Shown: one piece after another, positions 2,719 through 9,461 of the stretch
Numbering within the stretch: position 1 is the stretch's first letter
Layout of the letters: every line of letters begins with the position of its first letter
Origin: Pseudobdellovibrionaceae bacterium
GTDB lineage: Bacteria; Bdellovibrionota; Bdellovibrionia; Bdellovibrionales; JAMPXM01
NCBI GenBank assembly: GCA_913776405.1
Contig: CAJYOV010000543.1
Span: 1-10,361 of the forward strand
Reading direction: 5' to 3'
DNA length: 10,361 nt
Notes under the pieces: generated by a model
Database searches by the model: none
What the model was told of the DNA's origin: nothing
Seen by the model: the letters and a program-made list of their open reading frames with translations, nothing else
Translations under genes and position numbers: made by a program

Positions 2719-2746
2719 CTTGCAGATTAATTTGCAGATTAATTTG
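2711..2746. repeat. 12-bp unit in three tandem copies over two convergent stop codons
   Basis: CAGATTAACTTG (2711-2722) is followed by two identical copies of CAGATTAATTTG (2723-2734 and 2735-2746). Each copy contains TTAA, which reads as TAA on both strands. The plus-strand gene stops in the first copy (TAA 2716-2718) and the minus-strand gene stops in the third (2739-2741). The array leaves only 20 bases between the convergent genes, and no terminator hairpin is visible there. Confidence 0.9.
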
Positions 2747-3560
2747 TAGCAGTCGCTGCAGGTGCGACAGTTGTTACGGGCGCTTGCGACGACGTCGAAG
2801 ACACCGTATCCGCTGTCGCAGTCGAAACCGTTTTCGGCGGTAGAGTCAGCTCAAGTGTCATCGCGCGCACACCCGATTTGCGTGTGACGGTGTCAGGGAT
2901 ATCATCGCCAATCGATTCACGTGAAACCGGACGAGCCGCAACGCTTTGAACACCGTTTGTGTAGTTGCGAGACGCCAAGAATTCAGCCGGCGTCTTAGGA
3001 TCAAGAACGTTTGAGAAATTCATGTAGCTCTCGATCACGTTGAACATGTCTTCGCGCGGCTCTGGCACTTCACGCATCGCGATTGAAAAGTACGTGTAGG
3101 CTTTCCACATGCGGCTGTCGCGTGCCTCTGATAGGTCCGTTGAAGCCATTTCCAAAAACTGCTGCTCAAGAAACTGTTGGATCGGTTGATTCGAGTATTT
3201 CGAGTCGACCGCAAAGATCAAGCGATCGATCATTTCGCGTCGAGCGTTGAGTTCTGCGCGGCGTGAATTGAGTTCATCGAGGCGTTTTGCGAGAAGACCC
3301 GCTTTGGCGGTTGCGAATCGAACTTCTTCGTTTGAGACGTTGAGGCTCATTGAATCTTGAAGTTGCTTACGGATCGCAGTTTCGAGATTCGCAAGTTCCG
3401 AGGACTGAGTCTCTTTCAATTTTTTCAGGCGCTCAATCATGTCTCGCTTTGCCATCGTTGGCAGTGAAGACATGTTTGCTGGCGCGGCCTTCGCGGTAAG
3501 CGAGAAGCCAGAGCAAATCGCGATCATGATGCATGTCAAAGCTGTGATCCAGGTTTTCAT
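2739..3560 (-). CDS. exported coiled-coil protein, family unknown
   Basis: I do not recognise this 273-residue protein. The first 26 residues are a clear Sec signal peptide (MKTW, a hydrophobic core of Ile/Met/Cys/Leu, then LTAKAA with likely cleavage after AKA). Residues about 37-115 are charged and heptad-like (MIERLKKLKETQSSELANLE and following, with a second block around LAKRLDELNSRRAELNARRE), consistent with a long helical hairpin or coiled coil. Residues about 125-190 are a more compact region rich in aromatic and acidic residues. The last 40 residues are Thr/Ser/Ala/Val-rich and low in complexity. No cysteine remains after the signal peptide and there is no lipobox, so a soluble periplasmic or secreted protein is likely. 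The start is the ATG at 3560; the strong AAGGAGG (3573-3579) ends 12 bases upstream, rather far. It is a single gene, convergent with the gene at 2308-2718. Confidence 0.8.
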   Translation of the reverse strand: MKTWITALTCIMIAICSGFSLTAKAAPANMSSLPTMAKRDMIERLKKLKETQSSELANLETAIRKQLQDSMSLNVSNEEVRFATAKAGLLAKRLDELNSRRAELNARREMIDRLIFAVDSKYSNQPIQQFLEQQFLEMASTDLSEARDSRMWKAYTYFSIAMREVPEPREDMFNVIESYMNFSNVLDPKTPAEFLASRNYTNGVQSVAARPVSRESIGDDIPDTVTRKSGVRAMTLELTLPPKTVSTATADTVSSTSSQAPVTTVAPAATATN

Positions 3561-3714: not shown

Positions 3715-5616
3715 CTATTGATCGTAGAAGCTAGCCCCGCGACCGTTCTCGATCCGCATTTGATCTTCGTGAACTGACCAAAAGAGAATCTCTTTTTCGC
3801 GTTTAGGTGTGAGCGGCTGAAAAAGGTCGGCGTCTGTTATGCCCATTTCGCCTCGCTTGATTTCGATCTGACCTGTAGCTATCGGGCCGGCGGATTGGGT
3901 TCGGTTAGGCGTCGGCGTTCGGGCGCGATCCGAGAGAATGGTCGTACCAAATTCTTTCTTCGCGGCTTCAACCGACTCGATCATCGACCGGCGTCTCGCG
4001 AGAAACCCGGCGATGGCTTCATTCGACGTTCCGCTTTTCTCTAAAATCTCGCGCCAGGACGATTCGCTCGTGCTGACTAATTTTTCGTAAGCGGATTTCG
4101 GAGGAAGCAGTGTTTCCGCACGTACGCGAAGTGTTCGAGCGGAGTCATATCGAATGTCCCGGTACTGCTCGAGAATCTCTTGGACCTTCGGATCTTTGGC
4201 CTTCGGCAATTGCGAGCGAGCGGGCAAAAACTTGAGGGGTGACTTCTTTTCAGCGATCAACACTTTGACCGAGCGATCGAATTCAAGATTCTTTTTCTCG
4301 CGAAAGAGCCGGTCGGTGTCGGGGCGTAACGAGACACCGTGGTCGATCGCGACAGTGCGCCCTTCAACGCTGAGATAATTGCCTGCGTGCCGATCTGAAT
4401 TTCGGATGAGGGTATCAAACCAGCGTAAGTGATCGGGCGAAGTCATCTTTTGAACGGAATCATCTGCGCCTTCGACGAAGAGTTGGAGCGTGCCTTCTTT
4501 ACCGTCGATCGTTCGTTTGACCGTCACGGGGACAAGGTGTGCTCCCAATTTTTCGTCTACGGCATACGTGCCGAGTTCACCGTCGATGGAATAAGATCTG
4601 CGGCCCGTTGTCGGCTTCCAAATCGCCTTTGTTCCATCGTCGAACGTGACGATGCGGGCTCCAGTGAAGCCACCGAGTTTCGAAACTTTCGCAGGCACTT
4701 TGAAGCCAAGCACGGGCTTCATGCCCCAAACCAAGTTATCCATCTCCGCCACGGGTGCTGTCGCAAGATGAGTTTCGAGCGACGATCGAAGCGCGTTCGA
4801 GGCCGCAGTCTCACCGACTTCGGCCAAGCGCCAGACTTCGAGTTGCGGGTTTGAGGTAAATTTTGAGGCAACGCGAGTAACGAGCCCCTTCGTCCCGTTA
4901 ACGAGAGCTGTGCCCGCTAGAGGAACCGCGAGCGCGGCAGCGCCAGCGCCGAGATTCGCGTAGCAGCTCGAGGCCTCTGCGCGTTTCAAGATGCCGTTGA
5001 ACACATCTTCACTCGAGCACGTGGCCGGGCTTTTCGGGATAACCGACGTCGTATCGTTGCAGGTTGTGAGGATATTCGCTCCAACTGTCGCAACGTCGAA
5101 CATCGCGACACCCATTTGAAGAGCGAGATGTGATGAGCGAGCCGTGAGCGCAGCTGCCGTGCCTTCTGCAGCGCCCGCGAGCAGAGCGGACGTACCGAAG
5201 CTTGCGCCGATGGAAAGGATGGATAACGCCATCAAGCCATTTTGAGTGCGCCTGCGACCTTTCACAAATTCGGCATCACGGCGGCAGAGCAGATTGCGCT
5301 TCGCCGTCGGTGTTGCGCCTAATTCGCTAAGCGCAGCCGCGTAGCGATCGGACATCATGAGTTCTTCTCGAAAGTGCGGCATCTTTGAGAAGTCGTAGAA
5401 GAACGATCGGTCGTCGAGATTTTGGCGACCGCGCTTCATTTCAGTTTTGAATTCTTCCATTCCGGTTTTCAATTCGACGACGCCAGCGGCGTAAGCGCCC
5501 GTAAAGCTAGCTTCGTCGAACTTGCCGGTCTCGATTAGGCTGTAGAGTTTTGCTCTAACAGGCTCCGTCGTCCCGAGGGGGATGTCGACCGTGAGCGCAT
5601 CTCGTTTCAGTTTCAA
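3715..5616 (-). CDS. membrane-associated atypical kinase, HipA/PI3K-PI4K-like fold
   Basis: The 633-residue protein has an unrecognised N-terminal 120 residues, then three hydrophobic stretches rich in small residues (about 126-150, preceded by KGRRR; 163-183; 217-240) with cysteines C186, C200 and C218 between and beside them. The kinase-like domain spans about 313-430. It begins GGFTGARIVTFDDGTKAIWK with K334 as the likely ATP-binding lysine. Then come GELGTYAVDEKLGAHLVPVTV with E347 as a candidate Lys partner, GTLQLFVEGA, the catalytic loop DTLIRNSDRHAGNYL (D408, H410, N413), and the metal-binding VAIDHG (D425) in the DFG position. This is the order of bacterial PI3/PI4-kinase-like, HipA-related proteins. 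Residues 430-633 are charged and helical with a Pro/Thr-rich linker near 565-580. The start is TTG 5616, the only start in the frame before an upstream stop at 5641-5643. It has no ribosome site and overlaps the preceding stop as TTGA. Substrate unknown; I infer protein or lipid. Confidence 0.72.
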   Translation of the reverse strand: MKLKRDALTVDIPLGTTEPVRAKLYSLIETGKFDEASFTGAYAAGVVELKTGMEEFKTEMKRGRQNLDDRSFFYDFSKMPHFREELMMSDRYAAALSELGATPTAKRNLLCRRDAEFVKGRRRTQNGLMALSILSIGASFGTSALLAGAAEGTAAALTARSSHLALQMGVAMFDVATVGANILTTCNDTTSVIPKSPATCSSEDVFNGILKRAEASSCYANLGAGAAALAVPLAGTALVNGTKGLVTRVASKFTSNPQLEVWRLAEVGETAASNALRSSLETHLATAPVAEMDNLVWGMKPVLGFKVPAKVSKLGGFTGARIVTFDDGTKAIWKPTTGRRSYSIDGELGTYAVDEKLGAHLVPVTVKRTIDGKEGTLQLFVEGADDSVQKMTSPDHLRWFDTLIRNSDRHAGNYLSVEGRTVAIDHGVSLRPDTDRLFREKKNLEFDRSVKVLIAEKKSPLKFLPARSQLPKAKDPKVQEILEQYRDIRYDSARTLRVRAETLLPPKSAYEKLVSTSESSWREILEKSGTSNEAIAGFLARRRSMIESVEAAKKEFGTTILSDRARTPTPNRTQSAGPIATGQIEIKRGEMGITDADLFQPLTPKREKEILFWSVHEDQMRIENGRGASFYDQ

Positions 5617-6233
5617 TTCGACAGCTGCTTTTGGTAGGCCTCAAGGGTCGCAGCCGTCGGGCGTTCGCCACGGATTCCGGGTGCATTTGATTCCAAATCG
5701 AGAACAGCATGATGGGCTTTAGCGAGAGCGTCTTGCTTCGATTCAAACTTTTTGAAGGCGGCGGCGTTTAAGTCGCGAATCTCCGGCGGCGTCGCGCTCT
5801 GTTTCGCTGATCGCTTCATGGCTTCTTCGTAAGCGTTGAAGAACGGCAGGTGGCAGTCGACAGTGGCTTCCGCTTGCGACGCAAGATCGTTGAGAATCAG
5901 CTGTTCCGAGTAGTAAGCGATCCGGAGGATATCGTTTCTGTTGCCGCCGAAGCTGGAGTTCGTACAAGTATCGATTTTGTCGAGGTCGTCGATGGTGACG
6001 CGACCGAGATCATCGCACCGATTAAGACCGCCCACCGCCGCGTTAAATCCGTTCGCGAGATTCGTACCTGTATCCGCCATGTCGCGGGCGAGCGATTTCA
6101 GTTTCGCTTTCGCGCGAGTCGATAGGGGCGGTTGAGAGGGGCGTGACTCCGCTTCAGCGCGCGGCGTGCTCGCAACGCCGAGGCCAAAAGTGAGAAGGGC
6201 GGTGAGACTGAGAAGACGCCAGGAAGTCCGCAT
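5613..6233 (-). CDS. Sec-exported protein of unknown family, upstream partner of the kinase-like gene
   Basis: I do not recognise this 206-residue protein. Its first 28 residues are a signal peptide (MRTSWR, hydrophobic core LLSLTALLTFGLGV, then TPRAEA with likely cleavage after AEA). The mature part is mostly helical and charged, with three cysteines (C73, C90, C127). An odd number leaves one unpaired or able to bond with a partner. Motif-like phrases are LARDMADTGTNLANGFN, CDDLGRVTIDDLDKIDTC and DILRIAYYSEQLILNDLA. The start is ATG 6233; the upstream bases contain no good ribosome site. Its TGA stop overlaps the TTG start of the downstream kinase-like gene, so the two are one transcription unit and probably translationally coupled. 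An envelope protein that senses, anchors or is modified by the kinase is an inference from this arrangement only. Confidence 0.75.
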   Translation of the reverse strand: MRTSWRLLSLTALLTFGLGVASTPRAEAESRPSQPPLSTRAKAKLKSLARDMADTGTNLANGFNAAVGGLNRCDDLGRVTIDDLDKIDTCTNSSFGGNRNDILRIAYYSEQLILNDLASQAEATVDCHLPFFNAYEEAMKRSAKQSATPPEIRDLNAAAFKKFESKQDALAKAHHAVLDLESNAPGIRGERPTAATLEAYQKQLSN

Positions 6234-6332
6234 AGTTGCTTATCGGAAACCCACAGGGTCGCTTAACAATATTTGGCTCTCAGCGCAGGCTCAGATCTTG
6301 CGTTCGATCAGGGACGTTGGTCTAGTAAGCTT

Positions 6333-7379
6333 ATGAGAGACTCGTTCCAATCAGGAAAACTGCGCGATTTTGAATTCGCGGTTTATCGCAAGCTTCAGCC
6401 GATCAAGGGTGTCGCGAACTCGAAAATCCTGATCGCGTGTAGCGGCGGGCTGGATTCCGTTGCTCTTCTGTCTGTTCTGGCGGCTCTGAAAGCGAAACTC
6501 AGATTGAGCCTGGAAGTCGCGCATGTCCATCACGGTGCGACTTCGGATCAGCGCCAATTCCAGTCGCGTCATCAAGCTCGAGATCTGGTTTCGTCACAAT
6601 CAGAAGCGTTCGGTTTGAAATGCCATCTCATCGAGCCGGATACGCCTCTTCACAAGCAGTCGGAAGAAGCCTTCCGTGAGTTTCGTCTGACCTCGCTCGG
6701 GAAATTAAAAGAGAAACTCGAAGCCGACGCGGTCGCGTTGGCCCATCACGCTGACGACCTTTTTGAAACGCGTCTGATGCGTCTCATTCGTGGAACCGGA
6801 GCCCACGGTCTCGAAGCGATGTCGCTCTTTGACCCTGCGAATTCGGCGTCGATGGCAGCGGAAGCTTCGGGCCTCGAATTCTCGAAGCTGCGACCGTTTC
6901 TTGGTGAAACGCGTTCTGCGATCCGTGCTTATGCCGAAGAGAAGAATTTGAAATGGATCGACGATCCCTCAAACGCAGAAACTCATTTTTTCAGAAACTG
7001 GCTTCGAAACGAGTGGCTTCCCGCTCTGGAAGCAAAGCGCTCGGGGAGTGTTCGCAGCTTCGCGAGAAGCCTCGAGATGCTTGTTCACGAATTACAGAGT
7101 CCAGCGTCATTTGGAACTGCGCTCGATGAAGGCCTCGATATTGCCCTTGGCAAAATCGGGCGCGGCGCGTTTGAAGGTCTAGAGCTTGCGCGTAAACGAT
7201 CTGTTATTGTGAGTCTGACACGCACGCTCGGAGCGCGAGATTTCTCGCTTTCTCGTGTCGAAGAAGTGATCAAGCGTCTGCATCATCTTGAATCGACTGG
7301 TCAAAAAGTCGCACGCTTTCACGTAGGCGGTGTCGACTGGTCCATCTCTGCCTCAGAAATCGCCGCCACCGTAGACTAA
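6333..7379 (+). CDS. tilS: tRNA(Ile)-lysidine synthetase TilS
   Basis: Ligates lysine to C34 of the CAU-anticodon tRNA-Ile using ATP, which changes the tRNA from Met to Ile identity and makes AUA readable; essential in most bacteria. The 348-residue protein has the N-type ATP pyrophosphatase P-loop SGGLDS (37-42), the HVHHG motif, the AHHADDLFETRLMRLIRGTG segment that matches the family's 'HH.DD..ET...R..RG.G', and RPFLGETRSAIRAYAEE, then WIDDPSN and RNWLRNEWLPAL. It is shorter than E. coli TilS (about 430), so the C-terminal tRNA-binding domain is reduced, as in some short TilS proteins. ATG 6333 is preferred because it gives the usual short N-terminus; TTG 6273 would add 20 residues. Neither has a clear ribosome site. 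It is divergent from the exported-protein gene, with 99 bases between them, and lies upstream of ftsH. Confidence 0.9.
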   Translation: MRDSFQSGKLRDFEFAVYRKLQPIKGVANSKILIACSGGLDSVALLSVLAALKAKLRLSLEVAHVHHGATSDQRQFQSRHQARDLVSSQSEAFGLKCHLIEPDTPLHKQSEEAFREFRLTSLGKLKEKLEADAVALAHHADDLFETRLMRLIRGTGAHGLEAMSLFDPANSASMAAEASGLEFSKLRPFLGETRSAIRAYAEEKNLKWIDDPSNAETHFFRNWLRNEWLPALEAKRSGSVRSFARSLEMLVHELQSPASFGTALDEGLDIALGKIGRGAFEGLELARKRSVIVSLTRTLGARDFSLSRVEEVIKRLHHLESTGQKVARFHVGGVDWSISASEIAATVD

Positions 7380-7406
7380 GTCTCGATCTTTCCACAGTAA
7401 GTGTAT

Positions 7407-7434
7407 TTGTGGGATCTGCCAGCCGTGCTATCCT
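7407..7434 (+). promoter_or_regulatory. candidate promoter for ftsH
   Basis: In the 87-base gap between tilS and ftsH, TTGTGG (7407-7412) and TATCCT (7429-7434) are separated by 16 bases and match the -35/-10 consensus at 3 and 4 of 6 positions. The start would be near 7441, about 12 bases before the ribosome site. It could let ftsH be expressed apart from tilS. The -35 match is poor. Confidence 0.3.
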
Positions 7435-7466
7435 TGATAGTGGGTTCAGGGAAAGGACTTAAGCGC

Positions 7467-9461
7467 ATGCGGCAAACACAGAAGACGATGGCACTCTGGG
7501 CAATTTTGCTAGTTGTGATGATCCTCTTGTTTCAGATGTACGCCACGCAACGTGGTACGCAGATCAATCACGAAAAGTTTCAATATCCGCAGTATCAGAA
7601 AGCTCTCAAAGAGCACAAGATTCAGTCGGTCACGATTCGTTCGGGCGGTACCGATGCAGGGCCATCTGAAATCGCGGGCGATCTCGATCCGCAATACAAA
7701 GATGAGTTCGGCGGTCTGCACTTCGTGATCACGGGGCCACCGATGGCCGTTGCGCACGAAGAAGCTGTTCAGGCGGGCGTGAAACTTAACTACGAGCGAG
7801 CTGACTCCAACGGTCTTCTTCAGACACTTCTCATTAACTGGCTCCCGCTGATCTTGATCGTCGCGATGTTCATGTTCATCTTGCGCCAAATTCAAGTGGG
7901 CGGCGGTAAGGCGATGAACTTCGGTAAATCGAAAGCGCGCCTTCTGACTGAGAATAAAAACAAAGTTCTCTTCCAAGACGTCGCAGGCGTCGAAGAAGCA
8001 AAAGAAGATCTCGTTGAGATCGTTCATTTCTTAAAAGACCCAAAGAAATTTACGAAACTCGGTGGTCGTATTCCGAAGGGTGTTTTGCTTGTCGGCCCTC
8101 CGGGCACAGGTAAGACGCTCTTGGCTCGCGCCGTTGCCGGTGAAGCAGGCGTTCCATTCTTCACGATCTCGGGTTCTGACTTCGTTGAAATGTTCGTCGG
8201 TGTCGGTGCTTCGCGTGTTCGCGATTTGTTCGAGCAAGGTAAACGAAACGCGCCCTGCTTGATCTTCATCGATGAGATCGATGCAGTCGGTCGCCACCGC
8301 GGTGCCGGCATGGGCGGCGGTCACGATGAACGTGAACAGACTCTCAACCAACTTCTCGTTGAAATGGATGGCTTCGAATCATCAGAGGGCGTTATCTTGA
8401 TTGCGGCGACAAACCGCCCTGACGTTCTCGATCCGGCGCTCTTGCGTCCAGGTCGTTTCGACCGTCGCGTTGTCGTGAACAAGCCTGATCTCGGTGGCCG
8501 TTTGAAGATCTTAAACGTGCATGCGAAGAAGACGCCGCTTGCGTCAAACGTCGATCTTGAGAAGGTCGCTCGCGGAACTCCGGGTTTTGCAGGTGCCGAT
8601 CTTGAAAACTTGGTGAACGAAGCGGCCCTGAATGCAGCTCGCTCAAATAAGTCAAAACTCACTCAAGACGACTTCGAACACGCGCGCGATAAAGTCATGA
8701 TGGGTGCTGAACGTCGCTCGATGGTCATCAGCGAATCGGACAAACGCATCACGGCGTATCACGAAGCAGGGCACACGCTTGTCGCGAAGATGCTTCCAGG
8801 TTCGGACCCGATTCATAAGGTGACTATCATTCCACGCGGGATGGCGCTTGGCCTGACATGGACTTTGCCTGAAAAAGAAGCATTGAACCTGACACGCACT
8901 CAAGCTGAGAACACGATCGCGTTCGCCTTCGGCGGTCGCGCTGCGGAAGAGTTGATCTACAAAGAATTTACGACAGGTGCCGGTAACGACATCGAGCGTG
9001 CGACAGACATCGCGCGTCGCATGGTCTGCGAATGGGGTATGAGCGAAAAGCTTGGCCCTCTAGCGTGGGAGAAACGTGAAGGCCAGCCATTCTTGGGCAT
9101 GCAGCAATCATCGGGCGCCCACTATTCGGAAGCGAAAGCCGAAGAGATCGACGCGGAAATTTATCGCCTGATCACTTCAAACTACGAGCGCGCCCGCAAG
9201 ATTCTCGCGGACAACTTGCCGATCCTCGAAGTGCTGACTCAAGCTCTGATGGAGTTCGAGACGATCGACGGTTCAGAAGTCGACTTCCTCGTTAAAGGCG
9301 GAACGCTCGACGCCCTTCGCGACCAACGCCAAACGCGCGAACGCGATATGGCAAAAGAACAAGCACAAGGCCGCGCAAACGAAGAAGAAGCCGAGAAAAA
9401 GGCCGCAGCAGCCAACAACTCCGGCGGCTCCTTCGGCGGGACACCCGCTGCTGCAACGTAA
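7467..9461 (+). CDS. ftsH: ATP-dependent zinc metalloprotease FtsH
   Basis: Membrane-anchored hexameric AAA+ protease that extracts and degrades misfolded membrane proteins and short-lived regulators. In the 664-residue product I see TM1 at about 8-24, a periplasmic domain of about 90 residues, TM2 at about 118-139, Walker A GPPGTGKT (210-217), the pore loop FVG (243-245), Walker B LIFIDEID (265-272), the second region of homology [19 protein letters not shown] (315-333), the zinc site HEAGH (432-436) and a third zinc ligand, Asp 508, in [10 protein letters not shown]. The tail is Ala/Glu/Lys-rich and ends in Gly/Ser/Ala, as is common and variable in the family. ATG 7467 is chosen because AAGGA (7453-7457) lies 9 bases upstream and the protein then begins [11 protein letters not shown], directly before TM1. 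The in-frame GTG at 7401 would add 22 residues and has no site. A strong terminator follows. Confidence 0.97.

Follow-up and report, generated by a model that had tools for sequence, protein, structure and literature searches.

Animal secreted kinases of the FAM20/four-jointed type have conserved disulfides in their kinase domains, and the type II phosphatidylinositol 4-kinases (PI4K) carry a cysteine palmitoylation motif. How invasive predators deliver enzymes into their prey is, to our knowledge, poorly understood. Here we describe a kinase gene of predicted exported type in a member of the Bdellovibrionota, a Pseudobdellovibrionaceae bacterium (assembly GCA_913776405.1, 693 contigs, 84% complete). 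The gene lies on the reverse strand of a 10,361-nucleotide stretch of contig CAJYOV010000543.1, the whole of which is called the window below, and an initial annotation had read it as a two-gene unit consisting of an exported protein and an atypical kinase.

The kinase domain of the window shares with the FAM20/four-jointed kinases the catalytic Lys and Glu, the Asp of the DRH motif, the metal-binding D-H-G and, as predicted, a secretory route, but it differs from them in having no cysteines where FAM20 has its disulfides, in being fused to an unrelated bacterial N-terminal domain (hereafter the N-domain) and in not reaching the cut-off of Pfam Fam20C. From the type II PI4K it is set apart by its exported type and by the lack of any cysteine in the domain, so that a cysteine palmitoylation motif is not possible, and from the CtkA and HipA/HipT kinases by its signal peptide and N-domain, by the lack of a recognised HipB/HipS and by a fold match that ranks below that to FAM20. 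The sole NCBIfam match of its larger open reading frame (ORF), to the SCO1664 family (TIGR03843, E 1.9e-9, in two stretches), scored 37.3 bits where the family requires 172.4, and the ORF is thus not a member of that family.

Polymorphic toxins, whose repertoire includes ADP-ribosyltransferases and kinases, likewise join a common N-terminal region to diverse C-terminal enzymes, but the present family differs in that its N-domain has no curated family, no immunity gene is recognised, and the kinase is FAM20/PI4K-like rather than lantibiotic-synthetase-like (PMC3482391). One kinase survey describes the FAM20 cluster as eukaryotic- or Metazoa-specific and yet groups four Legionella families with FAM20/CotH; these bacterial kinases, also placed near FAM20, apparently lack the N-domain (PMC9758233). 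The range in which FAM20-like kinases occur would be widened by exported kinases of Bdellovibrionota whose closest match is FAM20. CapCone-2 comprises predicted secreted effectors of Bdellovibrionota as well, but has other domains and a true two-gene layout (PMC12419801). Among the matches listed in the open-licence literature of PMC, no title or abstract opening dealt with the N-domain or with an exported Bdellovibrio FAM20-like kinase.

Two reading frames and their single-frame relatives

The two ORFs, of 206 amino acids (aa) at 6233-5613 and 633 aa at 5616-3715, both on the (-) strand like every feature of the gene given below, lie where they had first been annotated. A broad protein search for relatives of the 633-aa ORF returned two sequences apart from the query, P0002 (852 aa) and P0003 (562 aa). 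P0002 is a single protein that covers both ORFs, its residues 1-202 corresponding to the 206-aa ORF (43% identity) and its residues 204-838 to the 633-aa ORF (54% identity), and six relatives (L068-L073) also hold both halves in a single ORF. Relative to these, the window shows one net frame change at a TTGA junction (5613..5616), where the stop of the 206-aa frame overlaps the TTG start of the 633-aa frame; the kinase frame is open for 8 codons further upstream of its own TTG. Because P0002 spans both ORFs, and because the six invariant cysteines of the N-domain divide three and three between them, we have little doubt that the window encodes one protein of predicted exported type, whose coding sequence is interrupted at the TTGA overlap by a net change of frame.

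A two-gene unit with a separate exported partner was rejected in view of P0002, the single ORFs of L068-L073 and the division of the six-cysteine set, the supposed partner being the N-terminal half of P0002 and L068-L073. Homologues had been expected to stand beside such a partner; among the family members examined it was never met as a separate gene. The overlap could still be functional, either as translational coupling of two real genes, for which stop-start overlaps are a frequent geometry, or as a site of ribosomal frameshifting that yields one protein, and both frames are indeed open. We consider this very improbable, since the relatives are single ORFs, the break would divide one six-cysteine domain three and three, and by eye no ribosome-binding-like sequence lies immediately upstream of the TTG start.

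A common N-domain with exchanged C-terminal enzymes

The N-domain, whose sharing with quite different C-terminal enzymes the initial annotation missed, comprises about 410 aa with a predicted signal peptide, hydrophobic stretches and six cysteines that are invariant in an alignment of 18 family N-domains. The 206-aa ORF, as the protein's N-terminal half, supplies a predicted Sec signal peptide (approximately residues 1-28, 6150..6233, read by eye from the N-terminal residues) together with the first part of the domain, whose Cys73, Cys90 and Cys127 align with the invariant C34, C48 and C83 of L055. The second part (approximately residues 1-226 of the 633-aa ORF, 4939..5616) adds Cys111, Cys186 and Cys218 of the invariant set, besides Cys200, and the window thus fills all six invariant columns. 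Two Gly/Ala-rich hydrophobic stretches lie at residues 128-146 (5179..5235, Kyte-Doolittle 1.76) and 221-239 (4900..4956, Kyte-Doolittle 1.54) of the 633-aa ORF. The signal-peptide region of the window fails the hydropathy cut-off, and the equivalent region of P0002 passes it at 2.52.

A five-sequence profile matched 36 of 140 genomes of the order, own genome included. Its hits comprised full-length relatives, kinase proteins of smaller size, and proteins, some 560-1200 aa long, whose match is confined to the N-terminal part. A hidden Markov model (HMM) of the kinase-group N-domains spans the greater part of the first ~400 aa in 11 of 13 proteins of this last, N-terminal-only kind (the L059 match falls in two pieces, and L057 and L058 match over shorter stretches) and matches none of 260 shuffles; as these 13 came from a related profile, this coverage shows extent and not discovery. 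The kinase HMM matched 0 of the 13. An HMM of 12 non-kinase N-domains provides a less circular test, and it finds P0002 (2.1e-15) and residues 6-219 of the window's 633-aa ORF (E 7.7e-15), with 0 of 600 shuffles matched. The predicted structure of the L055 N-domain is all-helical (predicted local distance difference test, pLDDT, 75; predicted template modelling score, pTM, 0.74), and a structure search with it gave no solved relative. No curated Pfam or NCBIfam family covers the N-domain; each of the scattered matches concerns a single member out of 18. Two N-domain paralogues stand in tandem at L120:2898-5408 and 5428-7827 and share 65% identity along most of the protein.

Beyond the N-domain the proteins diverge. 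Among 41 proteins examined, 40 carry the N-domain, and in 39 the C-terminal region is 60 aa or longer. These regions form 17 clusters, 11 of them singletons; the largest (n=10) is apparently joined via a recurring linker, and its final domains may differ. The identified C-termini include ADPrib_exo_Tox (ADP-ribosyltransferase) in L055 and RamC_N in L048, and an HExxH motif is present throughout one five-member cluster and in two proteins outside it. L048 and L049, from the same genome (G009), have N-domains that are 75% identical over 445 columns, and no BLASTP match at 1e-3 was found between them beyond this domain. A modular family, in which a common N-domain is combined with unrelated C-terminal domains, is thus very likely.

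The linker, read by eye as LGRxLS...AHxVG...Y...L..K..IL..AGF..., stands between N-domain and C-terminus in L048, L056, L060, L112, L116 and further members of the cluster of ten. L115 and L125 have in common a domain of some 550-580 aa at the C-terminus, for which Pfam gave no match at 0.01; one of the copies is in G020.

The kinase domain

The FAM20/PI4K-like kinase domain occupies residues 305-560 of the 633-aa ORF (3937..4704), with K334, E347, D408-R-H, N413 and D425-H-G, and is followed by a C-terminal tail (residues 561-633, 3715..3936) that is common to P0002 and P0003 and mostly missing from L002 and L003 (alignment A1). The kinase fold first noted around residues 313-430 is present. 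Alignment of 20 of the 29 translated kinase-type sequences, the window among them, showed K334, D408 and D425 kept in 19/20 and E347 and N413 in 20/20, whereas the histidines, also listed as kinase residues at the outset, are more weakly conserved (H410 in 16/20, H426 in 14/20). Among the nine sequences outside this alignment, L012 lacks the equivalents of D408, N413 and D425, and L008 has Asp at the E347 position.

FAM20 is the best match of the kinase both by profile and by fold, a FAM20-type kinase fold was found by structure comparison for residues 449-771 of P0002, and the fold match to CtkA, HipA and HipT is weaker. A FAM20/PI4K-like fold is practically certain. The kinase is nearer to FAM20 and PI4K type II than to HipA; of the kinship with HipA and PI3/PI4-kinases originally proposed, the atypical kinase and its PI4K type II likeness stand, with HipA giving way to FAM20, whose relation to the kinase had also been recognised. 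Pfam Fam20C was absent from the matches of the window and of P0002 and stayed under its cut-off in L002, L003 and L071. The PI3/PI4 kinase family PF00454 scored 17 bits in the window against a cut-off of 27.1, which was passed by 9 of 17 scanned kinase-type proteins (L002, L003, L006, L010, L062, L071, L075, L076 and L077). No cysteine occurs in residues 219-633 of the 633-aa ORF, hence none in the kinase domain; the hydrophobic segments and cysteines once ascribed to the kinase sit outside it, in the N-domain. A HipBA-type toxin-antitoxin system was rejected, as HipA_C (PF07804) had no match in the window's genome (84% complete) and a Pfam scan of 8 window proteins showed nothing HipB-like, in agreement with the absence of a HipB partner noted earlier.

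In L061:3856-5679 the equivalents of D408 and D425 are replaced, and this member of the kinase family, judged by its sequence, is a probable pseudokinase; its genome (G061) also holds the intact L062. Tandem kinase proteins were observed as well, namely L151 (G319:C3), whose 1662-aa open frame matches the kinase profile at three separate places, and L150 (G197:C59), a more distant kinase-bearing protein with a 1639-aa frame and two such matches, in which Fam20C scored 27.2 against 26.8 for the whole protein while no single stretch passes. In L148 (1437 aa) and L149 (1119 aa) the kinase is placed towards the C-terminal end, and no further Pfam domain was seen at 0.01; some 13 kb separate L149 from an N-domain protein encoded on its contig in G170.

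Distribution and proposed function

Across the phylum, the N-domain was found in 41 of 368 genomes (19 of 181 genera) and the kinase domain in 79 of 368 (56 of 181 genera), counts that include the window's own genome and are lower bounds. G020 (2,657,893 bases) is among the N-domain genomes, and G001, the other genome of the window's genus, matched neither domain.

On balance, we slightly favour the view that the protein is an accessory secreted effector, whose kinase would act in another ATP-containing cell, probably the prey. The signal peptide would take the protein out of the predator cytoplasm via Sec, the cysteines of the N-domain may form disulfides, and exit from the predator would perhaps follow a secretin route. 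The six-cysteine N-domain would serve as a common carrier and the C-terminal FAM20/PI4K-like kinase as its payload, the former carrying the latter over the membrane of the prey, into which the hydrophobic stretches might insert to help passage. If active there, the kinase would use prey ATP to phosphorylate protein or lipid targets, possibly to the harm of the target cell. The annotation's exported kinase that might act on prey is thus retained, without its dedicated partner.

More tentatively, the N-domain might represent an undescribed Bdellovibrionota delivery module, which carries exchangeable enzymes out of the predator and over the prey membrane, its payloads being a FAM20-like kinase, an ADP-ribosyltransferase, a RamC_N-like lyase, metallopeptidases and unknown domains. 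Such a module might form a predator polymorphic effector class without kin-immunity genes. A common carrier with exchangeable payloads, if true, would give a sequence handle for candidate prey-acting enzymes phylum-wide and make delivery directly testable.

Several observations weigh against a prey-directed effector. The interrupted reading frame in the window may reflect a broken copy or an error of assembly. The window branch is divergent: the HMM of non-kinase N-domains did not find the 206-aa ORF alone at E<=1, and the one built from six Bdellovibrio-type kinase-bearing N-domains missed P0002 and both window ORFs. The confidence of the N-domain model is moderate (pLDDT 75). No dedicated delivery machine was recognised, TssK (PF05936) being unmatched in the window's genome, 84% complete, and GspD-like matches there staying under the family cut-off. 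At 36 places no common partner or immunity-type neighbour was found, although payload-specific immunity could be missed. Finally, in four genomes of one genus (L070-L073, genus g19) the gene is kept at one stable locus with common neighbours.

This stable position, unlike that of a fast-moving toxin, would suit a self-directed envelope kinase, that is, a FAM20-like enzyme acting on proteins or lipids of the predator's own periplasm or surface with the N-domain as scaffold, and the signal peptide, Cys-rich N-domain and FAM20-type fold would fit an oxidising compartment. We nevertheless regard such a role as unlikely, given the patchy occurrence of kinase and N-domain, the absence of the gene from its syntenic site in relatives (see below) and the problem of ATP supply to a periplasmic kinase. 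The ADP-ribosyltransferase, RamC_N and HExxH C-termini on the same N-domain are also a better fit to effectors.

Gene neighbourhood

The window gene is flanked by a 273-aa exported-type gene (g273) and by putative tilS and ftsH genes, beyond which lies a DisA/CdaA-type gene. The product of g273 (window 2739-3560, (-)) is a coiled protein of exported type that matches FliG_M weakly (0.0024). The gene belongs to a conserved block and occurs in 17 of 38 relatives, in addition to the window's own genome. No foreign base composition was seen, the fraction of guanine plus cytosine being 0.553 and 0.572 in the two ORFs against 0.47-0.555 in their neighbours.

The exchangeable C-termini on a common N-domain would also fit a polymorphic toxin of kin competition, paired with an immunity protein specific to it. 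This is very unlikely in our view, as no common immunity candidate stands beside the family members, where a payload-specific one could be missed, and the conserved neighbours g273 and tilS are present also where the kinase is absent. In L134-L138, from the same family, g273 adjoins tilS with no kinase gene between them (5/5 relatives; a sixth locus, L139, has no tilS match and stands outside this count), which together with its occurrence in the 17 relatives led us to reject g273 as a partner of the kinase. Since these five relatives lack the window gene at this site, it was either inserted between g273 and tilS or lost in the others.
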